Shown here: positions 45,394-58,305 of the stretch, piece after piece | Layout: every line of letters starts with the position of its first letter | How positions within the stretch are numbered: position 1 is the stretch's first letter | DNA from: Affinundibacterium nitidum | GTDB lineage: Bacteria > Pseudomonadota > Gammaproteobacteria > Burkholderiales > Burkholderiaceae_D | Direction: 5' to 3' | Length of the DNA: 64,000 nt | Assembly (NCBI RefSeq): GCF_014284155.1 | Contig: NZ_JACOFZ010000011.1 | Location: 1-64,000 of the forward strand | Made by a program: the position numbers and the translations under genes | Notes under the pieces: model-generated | Told to the model about the DNA's origin: nothing | The model's database searches: none | The model's input: the letters and a program-made list of their open reading frames with translations, nothing else

Positions 45394-45427
45394 AAAAAAC
45401 CCGAGCTGTGATGTTCGGGTTTTTTTA
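45394..45427. terminator. Bidirectional terminator between pit and the lipoprotein operon
   Basis: Stem AAAAAACCCGA / TCGGGTTTTTTT with a 10-base loop. It also closes the long minus-strand operon that runs from 55.8 kb to 45.5 kb. Confidence 0.88.
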
Positions 45428-45457
45428 TGTGCATTTGTTTTCGTTAGTACTTAAGAA

Positions 45458-46042
45458 TTAGAACATTAATTGAGTTTTCTTTTGTTCAAATTGATACCAT
45501 TGCTGATTTGCTTTGTAATTTACGATCAGCATTGTCGTCAAAGCTTGCGGTAGGCTAATTGTGCAGTTGGAGATATGTTCTTCGCTGATCGCATCCGCTT
45601 GGATCTCAAAAAAAACCATGTGTATATCCGCGCTTGGATCGACAATAAGCTGCATCGCATGTTCTCTCAGCGTTTGATGAAGCGATGAAGTCGATGGCCA
45701 TTTCCAATGTTGAATATTGAGATTGGCACCATTCGATTTGATTAACTTGGTTTCTGTCAACAAATGTGCATTTGCCTTGGTAGACAGTGAATCGAAATCT
45801 GAATCAGACAAAGCTGCAAAACGTAAGATGAAGTCTTTCTGGCTCAACTCTTTTGCGTAAAGTTGATGAAGAAATTCCAAGTAATTCAAGCGAAAAATTA
45901 AGTTGAGATGAATGTCATCCCGTAACACGATGGTGACCCGATTTGATTCTAATTCGTGCGCGTTTGCGTTTGCGTTTGGCAGACAGTAGCATGCGCCGAC
46001 CAAGATGCAACTAGATAGCCATTGTGAGTAGCGTAACCACAT
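45458..46042 (-). CDS. Small exported protein with predicted N-terminal His, function unknown
   Basis: Protein of 194 residues that I do not recognise by name. The signal peptide (about 1-27) ends in ANANA, and cleavage after it would leave HELESNRVTIVLRDDIHLNL as the mature start. An 'AHE' junction of this sort is seen in several periplasmic families, including HupE- and CopC-type proteins, where the N-terminal His can bind metal; similarity here is only at the junction. AAAGGAT stands before the ATG. The gene begins 12 bp after the YHYH protein gene and closes the operon, so the two may act together. Confidence 0.7.
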   Translation of the reverse strand: MWLRYSQWLSSCILVGACYCLPNANANAHELESNRVTIVLRDDIHLNLIFRLNYLEFLHQLYAKELSQKDFILRFAALSDSDFDSLSTKANAHLLTETKLIKSNGANLNIQHWKWPSTSSLHQTLREHAMQLIVDPSADIHMVFFEIQADAISEEHISNCTISLPQALTTMLIVNYKANQQWYQFEQKKTQLMF

Positions 46043-46054
46043 TTAAGTTATCCT

Positions 46055-48640
46055 TTATCTACAGTAGCTGATAGACGGCTGCGTTGTCGTGCCACTAGAG
46101 TTAATGAATTGAAAATTCCAACACATGGTCTTTCCGCTGTTCTTACTCTGTGCAAGTGCGGTACTCAGCTCAGTTCCACTTAAAGCTTTATAGCGTATCT
46201 TGTACGTGCCGGCTGTGTTTGTGTAGGAATCTGAACCTATCTCATTAGTGATAAACGTTTTTGCTGAAGTGAATTGTAGAACCTGATAACCGTCTGTGCT
46301 ATCTGTACTGAGTGTCATCGCACTTACGTTGAACGGGGTAACCGGTGGTTGGCGCATGGGGCTGTATTTACTCGATTGGTTGGCTAAGTCAGGGCTTGGC
46401 GTGCCGCGGAAGCATGACAGTACATATGGAGATGCATCGGTCACGTGATAAGCGTAGCCAGCAGGACCATTGCTGACGGGGTCAGTATTGCCACCACAGG
46501 TACTGTCGCGTGGAGCTACTTTGCCGTCAGCGTTGTTGTAACCATAGATGGCAAAGCCGTCGAGAGCCCAACCAATCGGATGAGTGTCCCAATAGCTGCT
46601 TGGTTTTGCCGACATTACACAGCTCGGCGCAGCATGATAATGATAGTCATCGGCGCGACCCGCGTGACCGTTACATATATCGAGTTCACCTAAGACTTTG
46701 GTATCGCCATTTTGGCAACCACCTTGTTTGCATGGATTGAAGATCGGTACGCCATTGATTGCAATACCGATCGGGCCATCAACTGCCGAGGTTGTCGTTG
46801 CGGCGATTGCTGGTGCGAGAGGAATCTTCCAGCCATTAGCACCGTTGAATTTTTGGACCGTTGGCACTTGAAGATTAGTTGCAGTGATACCGTTCATCAT
46901 TGCATGTGTGGTGATTCCAAGGGAGCTGACATAGGCATAGTTTGCATCGCAACTCACCACAGCATAACCAGTGTTTGATGCGTTCATCGAATTGCGAACA
47001 TTTACGCAGGCTGCGCTTGAACCCGTCATCGTCGTTCGGGTGAAGTTTAAATTGAGCGAACTAGACCCGAGCGTAATGTTGGCGATGGCATCACGTATGA
47101 TTGAGCCGGTGATAGCTCCAGAAGTGGGTAGGCTAGGGGATGCTGAAAGAGCATAGATTGTGAAGGTATAGATCTTTGCGCCAGGGCCTTGCGAGCAAGG
47201 CGGCTGATATGCCGCCATTGGACCATCACTGCCGACACCGAGAGTGCCGACGCCAAAGCTATCTTTTGCAAGGCTCGTCGTGGTGGCGGGAATGCTGTAT
47301 AACACCCAATTCCATTTGGTACTCCCATCTCCTGGGAGTGTTGTCATCAATAAAGCAAATTCCTTTGTTCCTGCAGGTGCATTTGTCCAGCTAAGAGGTA
47401 TCGTTGAACCAGTGCCGTCGCAGGTGTAATCCGCGGTCATTGCACTACCATCTGCGCCAGCACTGCTGCTTAATTTGAAACCGCTACTAGATACTTGTGG
47501 CGTCGCGGAGATGATGGATGAACTGTCACCGTCTCCGATTGCGTTGCTGGTTTTGACCGAGCATCGATAGGTCGTGCCATTATTGAGCCCACTCACGAGA
47601 AGTGGACTTGCTGCGCCGACTTTCTGTATCGTGGTTGAGTTATTGGTGCATGTAGCGGTGTACGAAGTAATGGTGCTTCCTCCATTTCGAGAGGGAGCGG
47701 TAAAGCTCAAAGAAATAGTGCCATCCGCTGCCGTTGCGTTGAGATTTGTTGGTGCTGGAGGTGTGGTCTTTGCGAGGTTAAAATTAGTATCAATCAAGCC
47801 AAGTGTCGCGATAGCTTGATCCGTGTCTTCAGCAGTCACTAAGCTGGCAATCGAAATTGATTTGCTGATGTTGTCGGCGACATTGAGGTAGCTTAATCCC
47901 TGCTCAATGCTTATGTATCTGCCTACGCTAATCTTGTTATTTAATAGGCGTGTGACCCAACCTACATTCGGATCATTGGCTAGGGAGCGAGCGGACACGA
48001 GCATGGCGATCACAACACTACTCCGCGTTTGATTGCCTGAAGCGATATCATTGCTCCAATAATTGACTTCCGTATCTGTTGGTGCGCTTGTACCTGTTCG
48101 ACCCAACACATTCTTATAAAGTATTTTGACGAAGTCGGCGTTACTCATATTTGCAGTGTAGCCTGTTAGATCAGGATAGAGTAAACCAGCCGCATAGAAG
48201 CTATCTGCAATTTGCGAGACGCTCTTACCTGCAAGCAGTTGTCTAATCCAATAATTCATCCCTTCAGCGTCTGGAACTCGGTTGAAGAAGGCAATGTATA
48301 ACTCAATCAGAGAACGAAGTTGAGTTTCTGAAATTTGTGGAACTAGTGTCCCAAGACTGAGATCGACGCTGAAATCGGTAAAGCTCAGTTTGCTTGACAT
48401 CGATACGGTGCGCGCACTCTCTTGTCCGGTAGCGTCTACGATGGTCGCATCACTCGCATTCGTGGTGATGCGATAGTTACTGCGCTTTCCAATTAACTGG
48501 ATAGCTTGTGTAGCGGCTGGTGTTGGCTTCATTGCAGTGCTCTGCATTGCATTATTCTCTTGATTACCCCCACATCCGTTCAACATTCCAAGCAGAATTG
48601 GTATGGCGATGATGGAAGGCTTGAGTTTTACGAGAAACAT
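46055..48640 (-). CDS. Lipoprotein with DUF4214, FN3, PEBP-like and YHYH domains
   Basis: Large surface or periplasmic lipoprotein of about 861 residues. Layout: lipobox LLGMLNGCGG (Cys about 23); a 'GKRSNYRITTNAS...IVDATG' module (about 48-95); DUF4214 (about 108-215; LIELYIAFFNRVPDAEGMNY, IADSFYAAGLLYPDLTGY, ILYKNVLGRTG); FN3-like domain (about 295-380; PPAPTNLNATAADGTISLSF); PEBP/YbhB-like domain (about 390-535; DYTCDGTGSTIPLSWTNAPA, WNWVLYSIPA); YHYH domain (about 545-790) with ADDYHYHAAPSC, IGIAINGVPIFNP and GWALDGFAIYGY. GGAG is best placed for the ATG at 48640 (48643 also possible). The function of YHYH proteins is unknown. It shares its N-terminal half with the two phosphoesterase lipoproteins upstream. 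Confidence 0.88.
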   Translation of the reverse strand: MFLVKLKPSIIAIPILLGMLNGCGGNQENNAMQSTAMKPTPAATQAIQLIGKRSNYRITTNASDATIVDATGQESARTVSMSSKLSFTDFSVDLSLGTLVPQISETQLRSLIELYIAFFNRVPDAEGMNYWIRQLLAGKSVSQIADSFYAAGLLYPDLTGYTANMSNADFVKILYKNVLGRTGTSAPTDTEVNYWSNDIASGNQTRSSVVIAMLVSARSLANDPNVGWVTRLLNNKISVGRYISIEQGLSYLNVADNISKSISIASLVTAEDTDQAIATLGLIDTNFNLAKTTPPAPTNLNATAADGTISLSFTAPSRNGGSTITSYTATCTNNSTTIQKVGAASPLLVSGLNNGTTYRCSVKTSNAIGDGDSSSIISATPQVSSSGFKLSSSAGADGSAMTADYTCDGTGSTIPLSWTNAPAGTKEFALLMTTLPGDGSTKWNWVLYSIPATTTSLAKDSFGVGTLGVGSDGPMAAYQPPCSQGPGAKIYTFTIYALSASPSLPTSGAITGSIIRDAIANITLGSSSLNLNFTRTTMTGSSAACVNVRNSMNASNTGYAVVSCDANYAYVSSLGITTHAMMNGITATNLQVPTVQKFNGANGWKIPLAPAIAATTTSAVDGPIGIAINGVPIFNPCKQGGCQNGDTKVLGELDICNGHAGRADDYHYHAAPSCVMSAKPSSYWDTHPIGWALDGFAIYGYNNADGKVAPRDSTCGGNTDPVSNGPAGYAYHVTDASPYVLSCFRGTPSPDLANQSSKYSPMRQPPVTPFNVSAMTLSTDSTDGYQVLQFTSAKTFITNEIGSDSYTNTAGTYKIRYKALSGTELSTALAQSKNSGKTMCWNFQFINSSGTTTQPSISYCR

Positions 48641-48698
48641 CATTTTCTCCGTTGGGCAAAGTAGAAAGAGCAAAAAAGAATATCTTTAAAAATGTTCG

Positions 48699-51203
48699 CT
48701 ATTGGGCTGGTGTCACCGTCCAGGTATCGTCAACTTGCCGATTCTTTCGCGTTGATGTCTCACTTCCAGGTAACCAAGAACGAATATATTCGCCTTTAAC
48801 GCCTTGGGCTGACACTGTTACCTTTAAGTGCCCTGAGCTACTTTGAATTACGCCTGAATCGTAGTGGTATTCTTTCGCGAGGTTGGCACCACTTGTGTTG
48901 TTGGCCGCGCTCGGTTGCGGTACTTCTTGATAAATAACACCATCTAGAATTTGTCTAGCGTAAACATGATCGTGTCCATGAAACACTGCAGTCACTCTGT
49001 TGTTGACTAGTAGTTTGTGGATAGGCATGCTCCAACCGGGACGTTTGACGTCAAAGCCATAGCTACCATCTGTGTTCTTTCCACCCCATTCATAAAATGA
49101 TGCGGCTTCAATTCCTCCACGCATTTGGCCATCGAGCCCTCCCACGAGATTGTGTAAAAAGACGAATTTGTATTTTGCGGAACTTTTACTTAAGGTATCT
49201 GATAGCCATTGATATTGAGTGCTTCCCAAAGTCATATTCCAAGCATCCTTACTTGCTTGTGCTTTTGTATTCCAATAAGGGTCGAGAACAATGAAAAGCG
49301 CATCGCCCCATTGCCACGCATACCAAGACGCACGTTGTCCAGTTAATTGATTCAGCTCGGGATCGCCACTGTAGAATTTATTCGGCAGAGGATTCGCGTA
49401 ATATTTTTGTCTCGCGAGGCTTGCCCAAACAGCGATATTGTTTGCAGAGCCGTTATAGAGCCAACCTAATTCGCCTTCATGATTCCCATTGGCAAGGAAT
49501 AAGGGGGTTGAATGAGTGATGCGACCAAAATGCTGGCGTTCATAAACATAACGGTCATTCACCATGCTCTGACTGGTTGCCATCGCCACGACAGCGTCAA
49601 ACGGCCCCATATGTTTCTCCGTCATAAAAGTATCGCCAAGATCGATGTGAAAATCTGGCTTGTCGAGGAGGATATTGTCGAGTGTTCGCTGGTACTGAGA
49701 TAAATTTGAGTTTTCATCAAGATGGGAGTCCGCTTGAATCGTAAAACTAAACGTGTCTCCAAACGATCTTGAGGTATGAAAGTCGTAGATTTTTGAGCTG
49801 GTCGCTGTGTTGGTCGCGGTACTTTGATAATTCACCATGTAATAAATAGAAGTGTTTGCAATTAAATTATCAAGTTGAAATTCGAGAGGGACGCCAGCGA
49901 GCAAAGCTTTCGTGGGCGTTTGATTAGATAACGCGTTCGGGCTTGTTCCGTAGTTGATAGAAACGAAACCTGCTTGTGAACTCGAAAGCAACTTGATTCT
50001 GACGCTTGAATCAGTCGGTGCACCCAACACAATATCGCCGCTGTATGGTGGGGATGCAATTCCTGTTCCAGTCACAATATTTAAAGTTGTTGAAGGCGAA
50101 CTCTGCCCGAAACTATTGCTTGCGGTGAGTGAACACAGATAACTTTGATTGGCGCTTAAGCTGCCGATTACCAATGGACTTGTAGTGCCTTTGACATTAA
50201 GAGTAGACGTGCCGCTAGAACAACTTGCACTGTATTCAAGAATTGGGCTGCCGCCATCGCTGAGCGGCAAATCAAAGCTAAATGAAATGCTGGAACTAGT
50301 GTTTGTACTGGTGATATTGCGGGGTGACTCTGGCGCGGTCACACTTAAATCGAAAGTGAGATCTTTGATGCCGATGAGTGACATCGCTCTGGTCGTGTCG
50401 TTGGGCGTAATCGCATTGGCAATTGCGATCGTGCGGGTAATGTTGTCGCTAGGATTCGAATAGCTAATGCCTTGAGCTACGGCGAAAAATTGAGCAACTT
50501 GTATCTTATTGTTGAGTAAAGTATTGACCCAGCCGACACTGGGGTCATTTGCTAGACTTCTTGCCGAGGCCAACATCGCAATCACAAGTGATGTTCTCGT
50601 TTGTCGACCACTTGCAATATCACTTGTCCAATAGGTGACTTCAGCGTCCGAAGGCGCAGTGCTGCCACTCCGACCGAGCACATTCTTATATACAATCCTC
50701 ACAAAGTCAGCGTTGCTCATGTCTTTGCTGTAACCAGTCAGTTCCGGATAAAGCAGTCCCGCTTGATAAAAGCTGTCGGCGATCTGAGAAATAGATTTTC
50801 CATTGATCAGTTGGTCCATCCAATAAGCTAGACCTTCGGAGTCTGGAATGCGGTTGAAATAGGCGACATATAATTCGATCAATGCTTGTGTCTGCGCTTT
50901 TGAAACCTTTTGTAACTGATTCGCGATCCCAAGATTAACCCGCAGGTCGCTAAAAACCAATGTACTTGCGTTACTAACGTCACTAAGCCCTTCATTGCCG
51001 ATCGCATCATTCAGTGTAGTATTGTTTTGTTTGCGCGTGATCGTAAAATTATTCCGACCTCCTGTCAGCGTTATGGTGTTGTTGATTACCGGAGGAGGTG
51101 CAATCAGCACATCCGATTGAGTGACATTGTTCTGAGACCCACCGCATCCTGTGAGGCCGATGCAGATCATGAAAATGGATTGTAATGTAGCAGTGATCTT
51201 CAC
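48699..51203 (-). CDS. Lipoprotein with DUF4214, FN3 and calcineurin-type phosphoesterase domains
   Basis: Exported phosphoesterase of 834 residues. Layout: lipobox IGLTGCGG (Cys about 20); 'GGRNNFTITRKQ' module; DUF4214 (about 105-215); FN3-like domain (about 290-375); purple-acid-phosphatase-like N-terminal sandwich (about 385-480); metallophosphoesterase domain (about 485-790). Metal-site motifs are present: D-x-H in QADSHLD, GD in DLGDTF, GNHE, the His in FLHNLVGG and GHDH. It probably cleaves phosphate esters outside the cytoplasm, substrate unknown. The open frame starts with TTG at 51224, but the GTG at 51203 has GGAG at the right distance. It lies 27 bp after its paralogue and 58 bp before the YHYH gene. 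Confidence 0.9.
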   Translation of the reverse strand: MKITATLQSIFMICIGLTGCGGSQNNVTQSDVLIAPPPVINNTITLTGGRNNFTITRKQNNTTLNDAIGNEGLSDVSNASTLVFSDLRVNLGIANQLQKVSKAQTQALIELYVAYFNRIPDSEGLAYWMDQLINGKSISQIADSFYQAGLLYPELTGYSKDMSNADFVRIVYKNVLGRSGSTAPSDAEVTYWTSDIASGRQTRTSLVIAMLASARSLANDPSVGWVNTLLNNKIQVAQFFAVAQGISYSNPSDNITRTIAIANAITPNDTTRAMSLIGIKDLTFDLSVTAPESPRNITSTNTSSSISFSFDLPLSDGGSPILEYSASCSSGTSTLNVKGTTSPLVIGSLSANQSYLCSLTASNSFGQSSPSTTLNIVTGTGIASPPYSGDIVLGAPTDSSVRIKLLSSSQAGFVSINYGTSPNALSNQTPTKALLAGVPLEFQLDNLIANTSIYYMVNYQSTATNTATSSKIYDFHTSRSFGDTFSFTIQADSHLDENSNLSQYQRTLDNILLDKPDFHIDLGDTFMTEKHMGPFDAVVAMATSQSMVNDRYVYERQHFGRITHSTPLFLANGNHEGELGWLYNGSANNIAVWASLARQKYYANPLPNKFYSGDPELNQLTGQRASWYAWQWGDALFIVLDPYWNTKAQASKDAWNMTLGSTQYQWLSDTLSKSSAKYKFVFLHNLVGGLDGQMRGGIEAASFYEWGGKNTDGSYGFDVKRPGWSMPIHKLLVNNRVTAVFHGHDHVYARQILDGVIYQEVPQPSAANNTSGANLAKEYHYDSGVIQSSSGHLKVTVSAQGVKGEYIRSWLPGSETSTRKNRQVDDTWTVTPAQ

Positions 51204-51230
51204 GAATGTGCTCCGTTGTCTCAAGAAGGG

Positions 51231-53738
51231 TTAAGGTATTGTGTAACTAAAGACGGGTGTTCCATTGACCTTGCCTGGGCCTTCGTCCTTAGGTAAGTAA
51301 GTTCGCACATATTCGACCTTGACGCCCGTTGGCTCTACTCGAACACGTGTATATCCGGTGCTTGGAAAGCGTTCCCCAGTTAGGTATGCATCTGAATTCC
51401 ACAATGCGTAATTTGGATCAGCTGGTTCTGAGAGGCTTTGGTAGGTGACACCATCCAATTGTTGATGAACCCAAATGTGGTCATGACCTTGGAAAAAAAT
51501 GGTGACTTTGTTCGCCACCATCAGTTGGTGAATGGGAAGGTTCCATTTCGGACGTAGCGCAGCAAACTCACTCACGCCTTTCGCATTTTTTCCACCCCAT
51601 TCCCAGAGCCCCGCGAGCTCGACACCGCCACGCCCAGTTCCCATTACATGGTGGGCAAAAACAAATTTATATTTTGATTTACTCTTTTCGAGCGTTTCTT
51701 TTAGCCATAGATACTGCTCATCACCATGTGTGACATCCCACATGTTCGTACGCTTGGGATCGCCACCAAAGACATTGTCAACCGCAACCGGTGAAGCCCA
51801 ATAAGGATCGATTACCACAAATAAAGCATCCCCCCAAGTCCAGGCATAGTAGTTTCTGAGTAGACCTATAAAGGGCACAATTTCCTTATTACCTGAATAG
51901 AAGTAATCTGGAGCAGGTTGTGAGTAATGGCTGTTACGTGCATTCTGTGCCCACACAGCGATATTCTCAGGTGTGCCGTTTAGGTTGAAACGCGCTGCTT
52001 GCTCATGATTACCGTTCACAAGAAAAACAGGTGAAGAGGTGCCGATAAGCCCGAGATAGGGGCGCTGAATCGTATAGCGTTCAGTCACTTTCGTCGCGTT
52101 GATGGTCTTGGGATCAAGTGTATCGACACTGAAATCATCGCCAAGTAAAAGATAGAAATCTGGTTTGTCCGCTGCCACCGTTTGTAGCGTGCGGGTATAC
52201 AAGGCGCTGTCAAATTGAGATTTTTCTCGTTCTGGATGAGAGTCGCCCTGTAAGGCAAATGTAAATGCTTGACCGGGGGATCTCGCTGACTGAAATGAAT
52301 ATTCGATTGTTGGGCCCGAGCCAATATTGTTTGAAGCCTGGAAGTCGAGTCGATAGAAGTAACGCGTATCCGCGTTGAGACCTGTCAGTATTAGTTCGAC
52401 TGGTGTATTCGCACTCAAATTTACGCGTTCGGTTTGCTTTTCGTATTGCCCTGGATTGCGGCCATAACGTATTGATACTGTGCCTGTCTGTGAAGTGGAG
52501 AAAATATTTGCTTTAATCGATGTATCGGTTGGGGAGCCGAGAACGATATTCCCTGAGAAATTTCCCAGTGCTACTTCGGCGGCTGGATTGATGGTCACGT
52601 TAGTAGACGCATTACTGCTAGCAAAAGCGGTGTTGGTATAGACTTGGCAAGTGTAGCTCTTCCCATTGCTTAGACCGTTGATCGATATAGGACTCGTGCT
52701 ACCGACACTAGATAAATTCTCGGTGCCAGCATTGCACTTGATCGTGTAATTGAGAATGGAAAGTCCACCGGAATTTGTAGGAGCATTAAAGTAAACGCCA
52801 CCACCATTATTATTTGAGAATGTACTGATTACTTGCGGTGCCGCTGGCACCGTTGCGAGCAGATTGAAATTTGCGTCTTTTACGTTGAAAGAATCGATAG
52901 CTTGAGTGATGTCGCTTGAACTAATTAGCGCCGAGATTGTGCTGAAGCGGCTGATATTATCGGTCGAATTGAGGTAGCTGACGCCTTGTTCGAGCGCAGC
53001 GTAGCGTCCCATCTTTACTTTATTATTGAGTAGTTGCGCCACCCATCCGAAATTGGCGTCACCTGCAAACGTCTTCGCAGAGGCAAGCATGCTGGCCACA
53101 AGTGAACTTTTCGTTTGACGTCCCGATGTTAGATCATTGACCCAATATTGAATTTCTTCAATGCTCGGTGCTGTACTGCCGGTTCTCCCTAATACGTTTT
53201 TATAAATAATGCGGACGAAATCTGCCGAGCTGAGTGTACTAGAGTAGCCAGTGAGTTCCGGAAATAAGGCACCAGCAGAGTAGAAACTGTCCGCGATCTG
53301 AGGAATCGTTTTTCCAGATTTGAGTTCTCCAATCCAATATGCCATTCCGTCTGAATCTGGTAGTCGGTTGAAGAAAGCAATATATAGTTCAACGAGGTTG
53401 TCGATGTCGGCACCGGAGACGGTAGGTACGAGGGCAGCGATTGTTAAGTTGACGCTCAAGTCGCTAAACACCAATTTGCTCGCATTGCTAGCGTCAGTGC
53501 TTCCATCACCGCCAACCAAGTCAATGACTTGGATTGAGTTGGTAGCTCGGTTGATTTGATAGTTTTGGCGTGGGCCATTAAATCAAATAACACCATTTTC
53601 AATTGGCGGAGCAGAAAGTGCAATTTTTGCAGGTGTGCTGGCATTCTGTCTGTCGTCATTGCCGCATCCAAACAATAGAATGCTTAGATACATTGACAGG
53701 GTGATTGTAATTAGTCGTTTTATCATCGGAAGTGCCAT
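51231..53738 (-). pseudogene. DUF4214-FN3-phosphoesterase lipoprotein gene interrupted by an in-frame TGA
   Basis: Paralogue of the next gene, about 835 codons if read through, matching the paralogue's 834. The ATG at 53738 follows the kinase stop directly (53726 is an alternative). Translation gives a lipoprotein signal (SMYLSILLFGCGN) and a linker, then TGA at 53583-53585. The same frame then continues with NGPRQNYQINRAT, DUF4214 (LVELYIAFFNRLPDSDGMAY), FN3-like, a phosphatase N-terminal sandwich, and a metallophosphoesterase with GDSHPE, LGDDF, GNHE, AHH and QGHDH. There is no ATG and no plausible start between the stop and the domain; only a TTG at 53519. So this is a nonsense mutation, a recoding site or a sequence error. 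Everything downstream of the stop looks intact. Confidence 0.85.
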
Positions 53739-55142
53739 TCAATTGATTGTTGTGTTCAGAGGCAAGGTTAGATGCAGTTGGACAACATCCAACGAGCTCT
53801 CTTCGAGGCGTAGCAGTCCTTTGTGAGCCCTTGCAATTTCAAGCGCCACATTTAGGCCAAGGCCCGTACCATCAATATGTCGCGTGCGGGCAGGGTCACC
53901 ACGATAGAAGCTATCGAAGAATCGTGATCGCTGGTTAAGATCGATGGGACTGCAAATGTTGGTAATGCGCAGTTCGAATTGGTGCTTGTCAACTTTGACG
54001 AAAAGATCGATCACCGTACCCTCGATAGCATATTTCACGGCATTGCTTAAAAGATTTGTGAGCAGCTGCCGAATTAACACTTCATCCGCGTTGATTAAGA
54101 TATGTTGGGGAGATCTTAAGTGGATGTGCTTTTTTGCGGCTAACATTTCCATATCGCCTGTTAATTCTTTGAGCATGTCGCTGATATCGAATTCCGATCT
54201 TTCGAGGATGAGATTTCCGCTTTCTGCCTGCGCCAAGAAAAGCAGGCGTTTCGTGATGTGCGTCAAACGTGTGACCTCATCAAGCATCTGAGATTGTTCC
54301 TGTTGAACGATACTGTTAGTGGTTTGGTTGAGCGATTTCTCTAGCTTTCCCTGAAGGATTGTGAGCGGTGTTCGCAACTCATGTGCGGCATTAGAGGCGA
54401 AGCGAGATGCCTGATGAAAACTTCGCTCAAGCCTTTCGAGCATGTCGTTGTACGAATCAATAAATCCTCTAAATTCAATATATTCATTTTCAGGATTGAG
54501 CCGTAAATGAAGTTCATTTTTGTCTATTCTGTTCATCGCCTCAGTGATGGTGTAGAGCGGTTGAGTGACAAGCTTGGTTAGTGCCCATGCTGCCAACACA
54601 CTACAGAATAGATAAACAGGAATTAAAATTTTGAAGGCGCGTCGCAGTGAAGCATTAATTTCGTTAAGTGCGGAATTTTTCTTGACAATGAGCGCTGCGA
54701 CAAATCGATCGTTTGCGAGTTGAGCACGGACCCATAGCTCATTCGATGTGCTCAAAGTATCGAGCTGGCAGCGATCCTTCTGCGCTGAAGCTGACGCTTC
54801 AGGTTGCTTGGAAATACGATTGAGCAGACTGAACTCGTTAGGCCAGTTTGACGTTCGAATTTGGTTTTTTGAAGGTTCTGAGTTGATGTCGTTGACGGTG
54901 AATGCGAGATCGCTCTTTTCTGCTAAGTGCAGTTTTTGTGCCATATCGCTCCAAATTTTCAAACTTTGATCGTAATCAATTGGGTTTTTTGTCAGTCGTT
55001 TGATTTCCATACACATACGATTTTCTACACGGCCAGATTCATACTGAGTCAGACTCTGTGTACCAACAACCAAAGCTAGAATGAGAAGTAACGATGCTCC
55101 GAGAATCGCACTAATGAATATCTTAACTCGATAACTCTTCAT
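53739..55142 (-). CDS. Sensor histidine kinase of the OmpR-partner type
   Basis: Membrane kinase of 467 residues. First helix at about 7-30 (VKIFISAILGASLLLILALVVG), a short periplasmic domain of about 120 residues with two or three Cys, second helix at about 155-175 (ILIPVYLFCSVLAAWALTKL), HAMP, HisKA with HELRTPLTILQGKLEKS (phospho-His) and HATPase with LSNAVKYA, DSFYRGDPARTRHI and GTGLGLNVA. The frame opens at 55301, but the ATG at 55142 overlaps the regulator stop (ATGA) and gives the normal start. It is followed immediately by the phosphoesterase lipoprotein gene, so sensing and output are co-expressed. Confidence 0.93.
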   Translation of the reverse strand: MKSYRVKIFISAILGASLLLILALVVGTQSLTQYESGRVENRMCMEIKRLTKNPIDYDQSLKIWSDMAQKLHLAEKSDLAFTVNDINSEPSKNQIRTSNWPNEFSLLNRISKQPEASASAQKDRCQLDTLSTSNELWVRAQLANDRFVAALIVKKNSALNEINASLRRAFKILIPVYLFCSVLAAWALTKLVTQPLYTITEAMNRIDKNELHLRLNPENEYIEFRGFIDSYNDMLERLERSFHQASRFASNAAHELRTPLTILQGKLEKSLNQTTNSIVQQEQSQMLDEVTRLTHITKRLLFLAQAESGNLILERSEFDISDMLKELTGDMEMLAAKKHIHLRSPQHILINADEVLIRQLLTNLLSNAVKYAIEGTVIDLFVKVDKHQFELRITNICSPIDLNQRSRFFDSFYRGDPARTRHIDGTGLGLNVALEIARAHKGLLRLEESSLDVVQLHLTLPLNTTIN

Positions 55143-55834
55143 AAATTTTCCCCTCTCGGTGGACGAAAGCGGTAGCCCGCGCCTCGTACCGCTTCGATGA
55201 TGGAAAAATTGGATTCGGAATCGATGCTGGCGATTTTGTCGCGAATACGCTTTACACAGACATCGACAATATTGGTGCTGGGATCGAAGTCGTATCCCCA
55301 AACATGCTCTAATATCTGTCCACGCGTAAAAATTTTTCCAGGGGAGCGCATTAAATACTCAAGTAAGTTGAATTCTCGGCTACTGAGATCGATTTTGACG
55401 GTATTGGCAAAGGCCTGACGGTTAATCCTATCAAGTTTGAAATCACCAACGCTAATGATGTATTCCCTTTCGCCAGATATGCGGCGAGCGATAGCCTTTA
55501 TACGGGCATCCAATTCTTCAACAAAAAATGGCTTTGCTAAGTAGTCATCGGCGCCTAAGTTCAGACCATCGACTCGATCCTTAAGTTGATTGCGGGCAGT
55601 GAGCAGGATTGTTGGAGTTGAGTTTCCAGCATTCCTCAATTCTTGAAGTATGCTGAGCCCATCTTTCCCAGGTAGCATAATGTCAAAGATGTGGAGGTCG
55701 AAAGTGCTTCGAAGCGCTGTCGTTAGGGCTTCTAAACCGTCTGCGATATGAGTTACCACATAGCCACGTTCCGTTAGTCCTGACGTGACGATATCTGCGA
55801 TCTTTATTTCATCTTCAACAAGTAGTATTTGCAC
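55139..55834 (-). CDS. OmpR/PhoB-type response regulator
   Basis: Regulator of 231 residues. The receiver (about 1-115) has the acidic pair VEDEIK, phospho-Asp in LHIFDIMLPGKDG and Lys in DYLAKPF. The winged-helix DNA-binding domain (about 130-225) shows LSSREFNLLEYLMRSPGKIF, ILEHVWGYDFDPSTNIVDVC and VRGAGYRFR. I choose the GTG at 55834 because AAGGGG precedes it and it opens the standard VQILLVEDE; the ATG at 55903 would add 23 unrelated residues. First gene of the lipoprotein operon and its likely controller. It resembles the CopR/CusR/QseB branch more than PhoB proper. Confidence 0.93.
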   Translation of the reverse strand: MQILLVEDEIKIADIVTSGLTERGYVVTHIADGLEALTTALRSTFDLHIFDIMLPGKDGLSILQELRNAGNSTPTILLTARNQLKDRVDGLNLGADDYLAKPFFVEELDARIKAIARRISGEREYIISVGDFKLDRINRQAFANTVKIDLSSREFNLLEYLMRSPGKIFTRGQILEHVWGYDFDPSTNIVDVCVKRIRDKIASIDSESNFSIIEAVRGAGYRFRPPRGENL

Positions 55835-55886
55835 GATTTGCCCCTTGTGTTCAAACTGAATTTTAGGTGGTATCGCAGAGGTGCAA

Positions 55887-55904
55887 AATGACATTTCTGT
55901 CATT
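55887..55904. promoter_or_regulatory. Palindrome upstream of the OmpR-type operon
   Basis: AATGACA-TTTC-TGTCATT, two perfect 7-base arms with a 4-base spacer, centred about 60 bp before the GTG. It also contains a CTGTCAT/ATGACAG element like a Pho-box half. It is a plausible autoregulatory site. Confidence 0.5.
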
Positions 55905-56162: not shown

Positions 56163-56921
56163 TTACATTTGTTTAAAAAGGTGGACGAAGCTTCGACTCA
56201 CTTCTAATTTCTCAGTTAACCCTTTGATTTGAACTAGGTGGCGCCCGCGCATATCGCGGACGACGCCAGAAATGGCTTTTGAATTGACTAATGTCGAACG
56301 GTGAATCTGCCAAAAAAGGTGTGGATCTAACTCGTCAGCGAGATCTCGAACGGGCTTGCGAATTAATGCTTCATAAGTGGCTGTTTGCACGCGCGTATAT
56401 TTCTCATCAGATTGAAAGAAAAGAATATCCTCAACTGGGATAAGGCGCAGCTCTTGTCCGATCGAAGCCTGAATCCATTGTAAATAATTAGGTTTCGGCG
56501 CAATACCAAGCTGTTTTGCAAGTTGAGCGAGCATATTGCTCATATCGTTGGGCTCTGTAGCACTTTGCAGTCGCGCCTTTAGGCGTTCAACAGTTTTGCC
56601 AAGTCTCTCAGGATCTGCTGGTTTCAACACGTAGTCGACTGCTCCTTGATCGAACGCTTCGACAGCATATTGGTCGTAGGCCGTGATGAAGACAATATGT
56701 GCTTTACTGCCAATGTCTCTGGCGGCTTCGAGACCGGTCTTTGCCGGCATTCTGATATCTAGGAATGCCAGGTCAGGTTTATGTTGTTCGACCATTTGCA
56801 CTGCTTCTTCTCCATTTTTTGCTTCATCGAGAATTTGTAATTCGGGCCAGACTTGTTCGAGACGAGATCTTAATTGATCTCGCATTAGTCTTTCGTCGTC
56901 AGCGATAATTGCGGTTGGCAT
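56163..56921 (-). CDS. LytTR-family response regulator
   Basis: Regulator of 252 residues. The receiver (about 1-118) shows IIADDERLMRDQL, phospho-Asp in LAFLDIRMPAKTG and Lys in DYVLKPADPER. A linker helix leads to the LytTR DNA-binding domain (about 150-250; RLIPVEDILFFQSDEKYTRV, LFWQIHRSTLVNSKAISGVV). It matches the AlgR/BtsR/LytT type. AAAGGAAG precedes the ATG. It lies 55 bp downstream of the partner kinase. Confidence 0.94.
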   Translation of the reverse strand: MPTAIIADDERLMRDQLRSRLEQVWPELQILDEAKNGEEAVQMVEQHKPDLAFLDIRMPAKTGLEAARDIGSKAHIVFITAYDQYAVEAFDQGAVDYVLKPADPERLGKTVERLKARLQSATEPNDMSNMLAQLAKQLGIAPKPNYLQWIQASIGQELRLIPVEDILFFQSDEKYTRVQTATYEALIRKPVRDLADELDPHLFWQIHRSTLVNSKAISGVVRDMRGRHLVQIKGLTEKLEVSRSFVHLFKQM

Positions 56922-56976
56922 ATTCTTCCTTTAATCGTCTTGTTGATATTTTGAAATGATCTTAACTTTCTTTTTT

Positions 56977-58305
56977 TTATTTGGCAATTTCGAAAGGAAT
57001 TTCGATTGCAACACATACGCCTGACGGTTGGTTTGCTGTAATGATCAATTGTGCGTTATCTTTGTAAATTAGCTTTAGCCGTTCTTTGATGTTTTGCAAA
57101 CCTAAACCCGTCCCATTACTCGGCACCGCACCGAAGCCTAAGCCATCGTCCTTGACAGTAACACGCAATTTTTCCCCCAGAATTTCAGCTCTAAATTGCA
57201 GTGTTCCACCTTCTGCCTTTACCTCTAGCCCATGTTTAATCGCATTCTCAACAACAGATTGCAGCATCATTGGGGGGAACGATGCAGACCGTAAATTTTC
57301 CGGCATGATGAAGTCGATATTTAAACGTTCTTCCATTCGCATCTTGATTAATTGCAGATAGGACTTCACGATATCAGCTTCACGCCCTAAATTTGTCTTT
57401 GCAGCGTTCTCACGCATTTGTGGAAGTACGGCTCTTAGATATGAAATGAGACTGCGCTGCATCGCTGCAGCCCTCGGAGGATCTGTTTCAATCAAATACT
57501 CAACGGATGCTAAAGTATTGAACAGAAAATGCGGCTCAACTTGTGCTTGCATCATCTGCATTTGAGCTTCGCTCACTTGACGCAACAGTGCTTCACGTTC
57601 AGCAGCGGCATTCGCGACTTTGGCTTGTTCTTCTGCACGTACTTTTCCGCCCATCAGTGCTTTCATGCCAAACAGGCCAAAGACCAAAAGGGCGATGAAA
57701 TTTTTAAACCATTTAGAAGATTTTGTTTTCTCTTCGGTCGTCGCTTCTTCAGCTGCGTCCGCTTTTGCTTTGTCTAACTCGGCCTGAATTTCTTTCGCTA
57801 ATTCTTTGGGAAGTCGAATGTGAACGTCGTCTTTACCGATCGTGATCCCAGGAAGTGAATTGCTGTTTGCTTCCTTCTTTTTGCTTTCATCGACAGCACC
57901 TTCAATTTTTTCCTTTATTTTTTCAGCTTGTTCGTCCACAACTTCCCAGCCATCGCCATTGATCTCGACACGCTTTCCAGACGCCATGTGCTCCGGTTTC
58001 TTTATACGTATTCCTGTGTTGTCGATTTCAAAGTTCGCGTCATCGGTTTTTATCGTGCGCTTTGCAGAATCCTCTTTTTGGGCGCGTTTCTTTGACGTAG
58101 ATTTATGTTGACTCGTCGTTGATTCGTTTGGTGAGAGTGCATCTTGAATAATGTCGCCAGAAATGAAGAGCAAGATTGCGAAAAGGAAGAACTTCCACCA
58201 CGAGAGCTTTCCAACCCAGGTGGCAGTCTTATCAAAGGCTATACTCAGTCCTGCTAGAACTTGACTAGCGAACAACTTCAATTTGGCGAGTGTTTGTGGA
58301 TCCAT
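56977..58305 (-). CDS. LytS-type sensor histidine kinase with an unusual inter-helix domain
   Basis: Membrane kinase of 442 residues. First helix at about 35-55 (WWKFFLFAILLFISGDII), then about 145 mostly charged residues, second helix at about 203-220 (NFIALLVFGLFGMKAL), a coiled coil (about 222-250) and the His-kinase domain with phospho-His in QVEPHFLFNTLASVEYLIE. The ATPase part shows LQSVVENAIKHG and DDGLGFG/GTGLGLQNI. The segment between the helices is Lys/Glu-rich and has two short beta-like motifs of similar pattern (NFEIDNTGIRIKKP and GITIGKDDVHIRLP), perhaps the sensing element. Known LytS-type kinases usually have 5TM-type or small sensors, so this one is atypical. Confidence 0.92.
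   Translation of the reverse strand: MDPQTLAKLKLFASQVLAGLSIAFDKTATWVGKLSWWKFFLFAILLFISGDIIQDALSPNESTTSQHKSTSKKRAQKEDSAKRTIKTDDANFEIDNTGIRIKKPEHMASGKRVEINGDGWEVVDEQAEKIKEKIEGAVDESKKKEANSNSLPGITIGKDDVHIRLPKELAKEIQAELDKAKADAAEEATTEEKTKSSKWFKNFIALLVFGLFGMKALMGGKVRAEEQAKVANAAAEREALLRQVSEAQMQMMQAQVEPHFLFNTLASVEYLIETDPPRAAAMQRSLISYLRAVLPQMRENAAKTNLGREADIVKSYLQLIKMRMEERLNIDFIMPENLRSASFPPMMLQSVVENAIKHGLEVKAEGGTLQFRAEILGEKLRVTVKDDGLGFGAVPSNGTGLGLQNIKERLKLIYKDNAQLIITANQPSGVCVAIEIPFEIAK

Follow-up and report, generated by a model that had tools for sequence, protein, structure and literature searches.

What might six closely packed genes do together when a two-component system precedes three exported lipoproteins and a small exported protein? 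The genes lie on the minus strand of Affinundibacterium nitidum contig NZ_JACOFZ010000011.1, the first 64,000 nt of which form the window analysed here, and the run was delimited from 55834 to 45458 by sequence and Pfam matches. The lipoproteins (A, B and C) share a DUF4214-containing N-terminal part, the chassis, which is followed in A and B by a metallophosphoesterase (MPP) head and in C by a PEBP-YHYH head. The run is more than a product of chance, since its order is kept in a second genome of the same genus (G017, locus L063) and its heads recur across phyla. Two results are firm: a palindrome conserved in the promoter, and the partnership of the PEBP-YHYH protein with the small protein. 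We give about even chances to the reading that this is a self-regulated operon, responsive to a metal (most likely copper), for exported proteins that handle metal and cut phosphate esters.

The palindrome, ATGACA-N4-TGTCAT, was located by motif count at 55888..55903 (no strand) and is predicted to be a CusR-type response-regulator site. TGACA-N4-TGTCA occurs once in the window (55889-55902; 0.03 expected), and the longer form twice in the 4.38 Mb genome, the second copy lying within a coding frame. Six cassettes with this regulator/kinase pair were found: the window, L063 and G003 (L212/L064), all of one genus, together with L118, L121 (Inhella crocodyli) and L130 (Albitalea terrae). All six carry the palindrome less than 600 bp upstream of the regulator gene, five exactly and L121 with one mismatch; in the shuffle control the one-mismatch form gave a mean of 0.117 of 6 with a maximum of 2, and the exact form never occurred. 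Further sites, exact or with one mismatch, lie between kinase and PEBP-YHYH genes in L118, L121 and L130, before the PEBP-YHYH gene in G003, and before MPP genes in L121 and G003, the last of these overlying the final codons of the kinase gene. Exact sites fall in 9 of 211 loci (some overlapping); five of the nine are cassettes that include the pair (L063, L064, L118, L121, L130). One-mismatch sites away from promoters were seen at window position 45904 and L063 3373, both inside the small-protein gene, and at L063 8261, L212 3390 (the same as L064 890), L064 10850 and L118 16841. According to a passage in PMC11195947, E. coli CusR binds AAAATGACAAnnTTGTCATTTT; no CusR box sequence was found in the portions of PMC10003395 and PMC10920338 consulted.

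The gene behind the palindrome encodes an OmpR-family response regulator of the heavy-metal class (55139..55834, minus strand; Response_reg and Trans_reg_C in Pfam), with TIGR01387 as its top NCBIfam family. Its start is likely the GTG at 55834 and not the listed open reading frame start, ATG 55903, because alignments to most families start only near residue 24-26 and ATG 55903 lies inside the palindrome. The sensor histidine kinase (53739..55142, minus strand; HisKA and HATPase_c in Pfam) has TIGR01386 as its top family. Identity to the proteins of the window is 55-70% for the five other regulators and 34-50% for the kinases. Like CusRS, CopRS and HprRS, the pair combines this regulator class with an adjoining kinase and TGACA-N4-TGTCA before the regulator gene, but it scores under the curated cut-offs and would drive exported phosphoesterases and a PEBP-YHYH protein rather than efflux or copper-oxidase genes. 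That the pair drives the lipoprotein set, as the sequence-only reading had it, is supported by the palindrome, to which the regulator would bind, and by the conserved order. The same reading left phosphate and metal side by side as themes; judged by the CusR-like box and the heavy-metal class of the regulator, control appears to be of the metal type and not of the phosphate type.

The PEBP-YHYH/small-protein partnership emerged from a genome-contig scan with the PEBP-YHYH head, from which the best 80 of at least 561 confirmed loci were taken and split into closer relatives (set 1, L103-L142) and more distant ones (set 2), 40 in each. Set 1 consists mostly of metagenome-assembled genomes (MAGs) labelled Gamma-, Beta- or Alphaproteobacteria, Acidobacteria or Gemmatimonadetes, many with names that suggest lakes. 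Where set-1 loci offer 600 bp or more of room, 33 of 36 have a small-protein gene in the same orientation no more than 400 bp downstream (L127, L134 and L139 do not, the copies at L139 being on the opposite strand), versus 2 of 39 in set 2; the small protein therefore travels with the full PEBP-YHYH head. HupE genes occur within 3.5 kb in 3/40 loci of set 1 and 0/40 of set 2. A control of 243,508 bp of the own genome, which left out L060, the holder of an MPP-YHYH fusion, contained neither MPP nor small protein.

For MPP the co-occurrence is partial. A single-sequence MPP query of 299 Pseudomonadota genomes returned the own genome, one strong match (368 bits) and one weak match (28 bits); PF14240 (YHYH) was found in 21 of the 299, and since the 368-bit genome is not among these, YHYH in general does not predict the presence of this MPP, and this MPP does not predict YHYH. 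A 25-row profile was used for 44 genomes hand-chosen from the 80 loci (28 of set 1, mostly by locus length, and 16 of set 2) and gave MPPs above 200 bits in 15 of the 28 set-1 genomes, a rate quoted for set 1 only because the choice in set 2 favoured loci with a known MPP neighbour (12 of 16). Among the 27 of these 44 genomes, from both sets, that were preselected for an MPP above 200 bits, 21 have one within 6 kb of YHYH; the low share of MPP copies so placed (35/115) arises because four genomes hold 12-26 copies. The genomes of L125, L127, L134 and L139 (G367, G369, G375, G379) carry 12-26 copies above 200 bits per 1.9-4.4 Mb, some in frames of up to 2436 amino acids. Single-chain MPP-YHYH proteins are encoded by the own genome (G000:C4) and also by G009, where the two domains lie in a shared frame. 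At L060 (5162-9802) such a lipoprotein gene is divergent from a HupE/UreJ-2 gene, whose product also has AH after a signal-like N-terminus, and a similar gene pair occurs in G009 (L068). SCO1-like genes stand directly beside YHYH genes at L065 (10615-11277; Pfam SCO1) and L066 (2663-3397; by sequence). The co-occurrence check suggested by the sequence-only reading came out positive for PEBP-YHYH with the small protein and in part for MPP.

Lipoproteins A (51231..53738), B (48699..51203, GTG start) and C (46055..48640), all on the minus strand, consist of a lipobox, a GxRxNY motif (GxRxNY-like in B) and, by Pfam, two DUF4214 stretches, FN3 and the head, with PEBP at 47042-47440 and YHYH at 46535-46831 in C. 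This composition is as first described, except that lipoprotein A is interrupted at codon 52 by an in-frame TGA (53583..53585, minus strand), so that only two of the three are intact in this assembly. The TGA (read 53585-53583) follows the lipobox and the frame is open for 783 codons beyond; assembly error, recent lesion and readthrough cannot be told apart. Lipoprotein A is uninterrupted in G017, and its head shows a pN of 0.08 and a pS of 0.86 relative to that genome; pN and pS are given instead of Ka/Ks for heads and chassis since synonymous sites are saturated. The DUF4214 matches (PF13946) score 57.9, 64 and 69.8 bits (cut-off 23.2) and the MPP heads (PF00149) 34.5 and 38.9 bits (cut-off 21.5), and the metal-site columns DxH, GD, GNH and GHDH are invariant or nearly so in a 25-sequence alignment. 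These motifs are shared with purple-acid-phosphatase and PhoD-like MPPs, whereas at E<=0.01 lipoproteins A and B have no NCBIfam match and head A has no PDB relative by phmmer; a PAP-type N-terminal domain in head A is weak (22.6 bits, cut-off 30). YHYH in lipoprotein C scores 70 bits (cut-off 25) with the conserved His/Asp set of its family, and the PEBP domain is recognised by both profile and fold, PEBP matches filling the result lists of the structure search. A passage in PMC7824862 describes YHYH as a predicted Zn-binding hydrolase in the context of phage tail proteins, whereas here it is fused to PEBP and a lipobox; the YHYH passages in PMC7029224 and PMC11992049 give no further function.

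DUF4214 is a genome-wide chassis and not a defining part of the system. In the own genome, 44 DUF4214 matches are spread over 22 proteins (rows counted manually), 12 of which are lipoproteins that share this N-terminal arrangement. Nine of the 12 are encoded outside the window; their heads are DUF1800, an S41 protease, a cyclophilin, an NHL propeller or MPP plus YHYH, and four of the nine have no Pfam head. The same GxRxNY and DUF4214 module recurs in lipobox-free proteins, several with RTX-like repeats, but there it is C-terminal, unlike the N-terminal lipoprotein chassis of the window. One DUF4214 protein is described, in a passage of PMC11970703, as a possibly anchored exported enzyme. Between the window and G017, heads A, B and C are 86, 76 and 91% identical, versus 63, 53 and 70% for their chassis; a search of PDB sequences with the chassis of lipoprotein C gave no matches. 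In a chassis tree of 38 rows, from which partial matches such as L132 were left out, the chassis linked to MPP or YHYH group in a single clade (11 rows, 10 distinct proteins; support 100/99). The chassis of a PEBP-YHYH protein from an Oxalobacteraceae MAG (L137) falls outside it, which suggests that chassis and head were fused more than once. The proposal of an anchor or scaffold with different heads agrees with the shared palindrome, the conserved order and the chassis tree, and fails for DUF4214 as the defining part. DUF4214 as the system core was rejected: it is absent from the G003 cassette and unseen near 38 of the 40 close relatives, some of which are cut by contig ends. At L044 (2389-6316) a DUF1800 head on a DUF4214 chassis stands beside a gene that we take to be DUF1501, and a gene with the same presumed label lies beside another DUF4214 protein at L053 (8443-9795).

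The small exported protein (45458..46042, minus strand; 194 amino acids) has no Pfam family match. Its predicted mature N-terminus is a His in 35/35 sequences, with a small residue at -1 in 33/35 (cleavage site placed by eye). The model shows an anglerase-like, Ig-like fold as in 9GCE, and kinship with anglerases is argued from this modelled fold. A PDB sequence search with the small-protein profile gave one weak match, to a designed protein (E 0.27). The second metal ligand is Asn41 in Ang-1, where it is poorly conserved, and Asp33 in Ang-2 (PMC12537917); no clear counterpart was picked in the small protein. Unlike these anglerases, the small protein is free-standing, without the HupE/UreJ-2 permease domain, its gene sits behind PEBP-YHYH, and the sequence link is not significant.

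The physical layout was largely anticipated by the sequence-only reading. The minus-strand sequence bears out a 4 bp overlap of regulator and kinase (kinase ATG 55142, regulator end 55139), a kinase stop (53741-53739) directly adjoining the ATG of lipoprotein A (53738), and gaps of 27 bp from A (end 51231) to the GTG of B (51203), 58 bp from B (end 48699) to the ATG of C (48640; alternative ATG at 48643) and 12 bp from C (end 46055) to the small-protein start (46042). The bidirectional terminator placed at the end of the run corresponds to a terminator-like hairpin at 45394-45426 (no strand; sequence and fold), flanked by A and T runs and separating the operon from the convergently oriented PiT gene; the predicted fold of 45398-45440 has -9.2 kcal/mol and a z of -3.7. 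A consensus terminator scan with a loop limit of 8 did not list it, and the consensus scans gave no useful signal, with 6 promoter-like sites where shuffles gave 18.3 and 11 terminator-like sites where shuffles gave 12.2. PiT and DUF47 genes (Pfam) adjoin the operon and are convergent to it. G017 keeps the order of all six genes and also their dnaB-like, DUF47 and PiT neighbours; in G003 the run is regulator, kinase, four MPPs, PEBP/YHYH, small protein and TonB receptor, without DUF4214. Two TonB-receptor-like genes directly follow the G003 cassette (L064 10422-14827). A second regulator/kinase pair, LytTR-like by look, lies directly upstream of the operon on the same strand (56163-58305), and likewise in G017 with one additional gene in between. 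None of 20 plasmid records had at least 80% query coverage in one place.

From the gene set, its conservation, the palindrome, the catalytic residues and the modelled fold, a course of events may be proposed. The kinase would sense a metal, putatively copper, or a redox change outside the cytoplasm, and the regulator would bind TGACA-N4-TGTCA before its own gene and switch the operon on. The exported PEBP-YHYH head and the two calcineurin-like MPPs would be tethered to the envelope through the lineage-specific DUF4214 chassis, the small protein would bind a transition metal through its mature N-terminal His in the manner of anglerases, and the products may jointly handle metal and hydrolyse phosphate esters at the cell surface. 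The substrate could be phospholipid head groups, because a PEBP domain is present. More tentatively, and at less than even odds, the parts may form a new class of surface machine, carried by bacteria of several phyla and in many cases from freshwater, in which a free-standing anglerase-like copper protein, PEBP-YHYH and paired MPPs make up a metal-gated phosphoester-processing complex, with a CusR-type switch in some lineages and DUF4214 re-anchoring in one.

A number of results weigh against a metal-responsive operon of this kind. Of the marks of the heavy-metal (Cus/Cop/Czt) families, the palindrome in the own promoter was found, but the regulator reaches only 222.1 bits against TIGR01387 (cut-off 279.2), the kinase 234.6 bits against TIGR01386 (cut-off 292.55), and no metal efflux or oxidase gene is among the six. 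The pair was seen near only 3/40 close relatives (3/30 with at least 3.5 kb upstream), and of the 37 set-1 cassettes without it, only three have a one-mismatch site within 2.6 kb upstream, which means that CusR-type control is not general. Four loci without the pair (L080, L103, L143, L150) have exact sites away from such promoters. MPPs (above 40 bits) lie within 5 kb in 11/40 loci of set 1 and 17/40 of set 2 and were unseen in 29/40 and 23/40, some loci being cut by contig ends. Of 60 near genomes (the own one, 35 from its genus and 24 from its order), 8 have a PF14240 match and 3 (own, G017, G003) the small protein; the gene set is therefore sparse in the genus. When profiles of the small protein and of HupE N-termini were compared, the probability was only 5.7%. 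Finally, a passage in PMC8249747 states that HprR, which responds to H2O2, shares its recognition sequence with CusR; the signal can therefore not be read from the box, and two Cys residues (C46 and C127), probably extracytoplasmic as judged by eye, are invariant in 6/6 aligned kinases, so redox sensing would fit as well.

These last points lead to the strongest alternative, an oxidant-responsive envelope repair or defence operon in which the two Cys would let an HprRS-like pair respond to H2O2 or HOCl. The regulator does score to HprR (187.9 bits, cut-off 353), but no methionine-sulphoxide or thiol repair gene was found by Pfam among the six, and the modelled small-protein fold is that of metal-binding proteins; we consider this alternative unlikely, if deserving attention. 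Slightly less probable still is phosphate scavenging, in which a PhoBR-like pair controls MPPs that supply phosphate to the neighbouring PiT transporter. The intact metal-site residues and the adjoining PiT and DUF47 genes suit it, but the scores to PhoB (191.2 bits, cut-off 296.2) and PhoR (134.4 bits, cut-off 334.2) fall short, PiT is convergent across the terminator-like hairpin, the G003 cassette is followed by TonB receptors instead, and the box is CusR-type. A chance run of DUF4214 lipoproteins behind a regulator pair, with no joint function, would suit the scatter of such lipoproteins beside unrelated genes, the minority of loci with MPP near YHYH and the rarity of the small protein in near genomes, but is very improbable given the order kept in G017, the same head kinds in G003 without DUF4214, the 33/36 adjacency and the single MPP/YHYH chassis clade.

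In the literature searched, mostly outside subscription journals, no account of this gene set was found, in agreement with the sequence-only reading, and YHYH and DUF4214, both domains of unknown function, are treated in very few of its papers. The locus gives both domains a testable setting, with a predicted inducer class, a predicted binding site and a partner of predicted metal-protein fold, and the natural cassettes with and without DUF4214 make the chassis testable separately from the heads.
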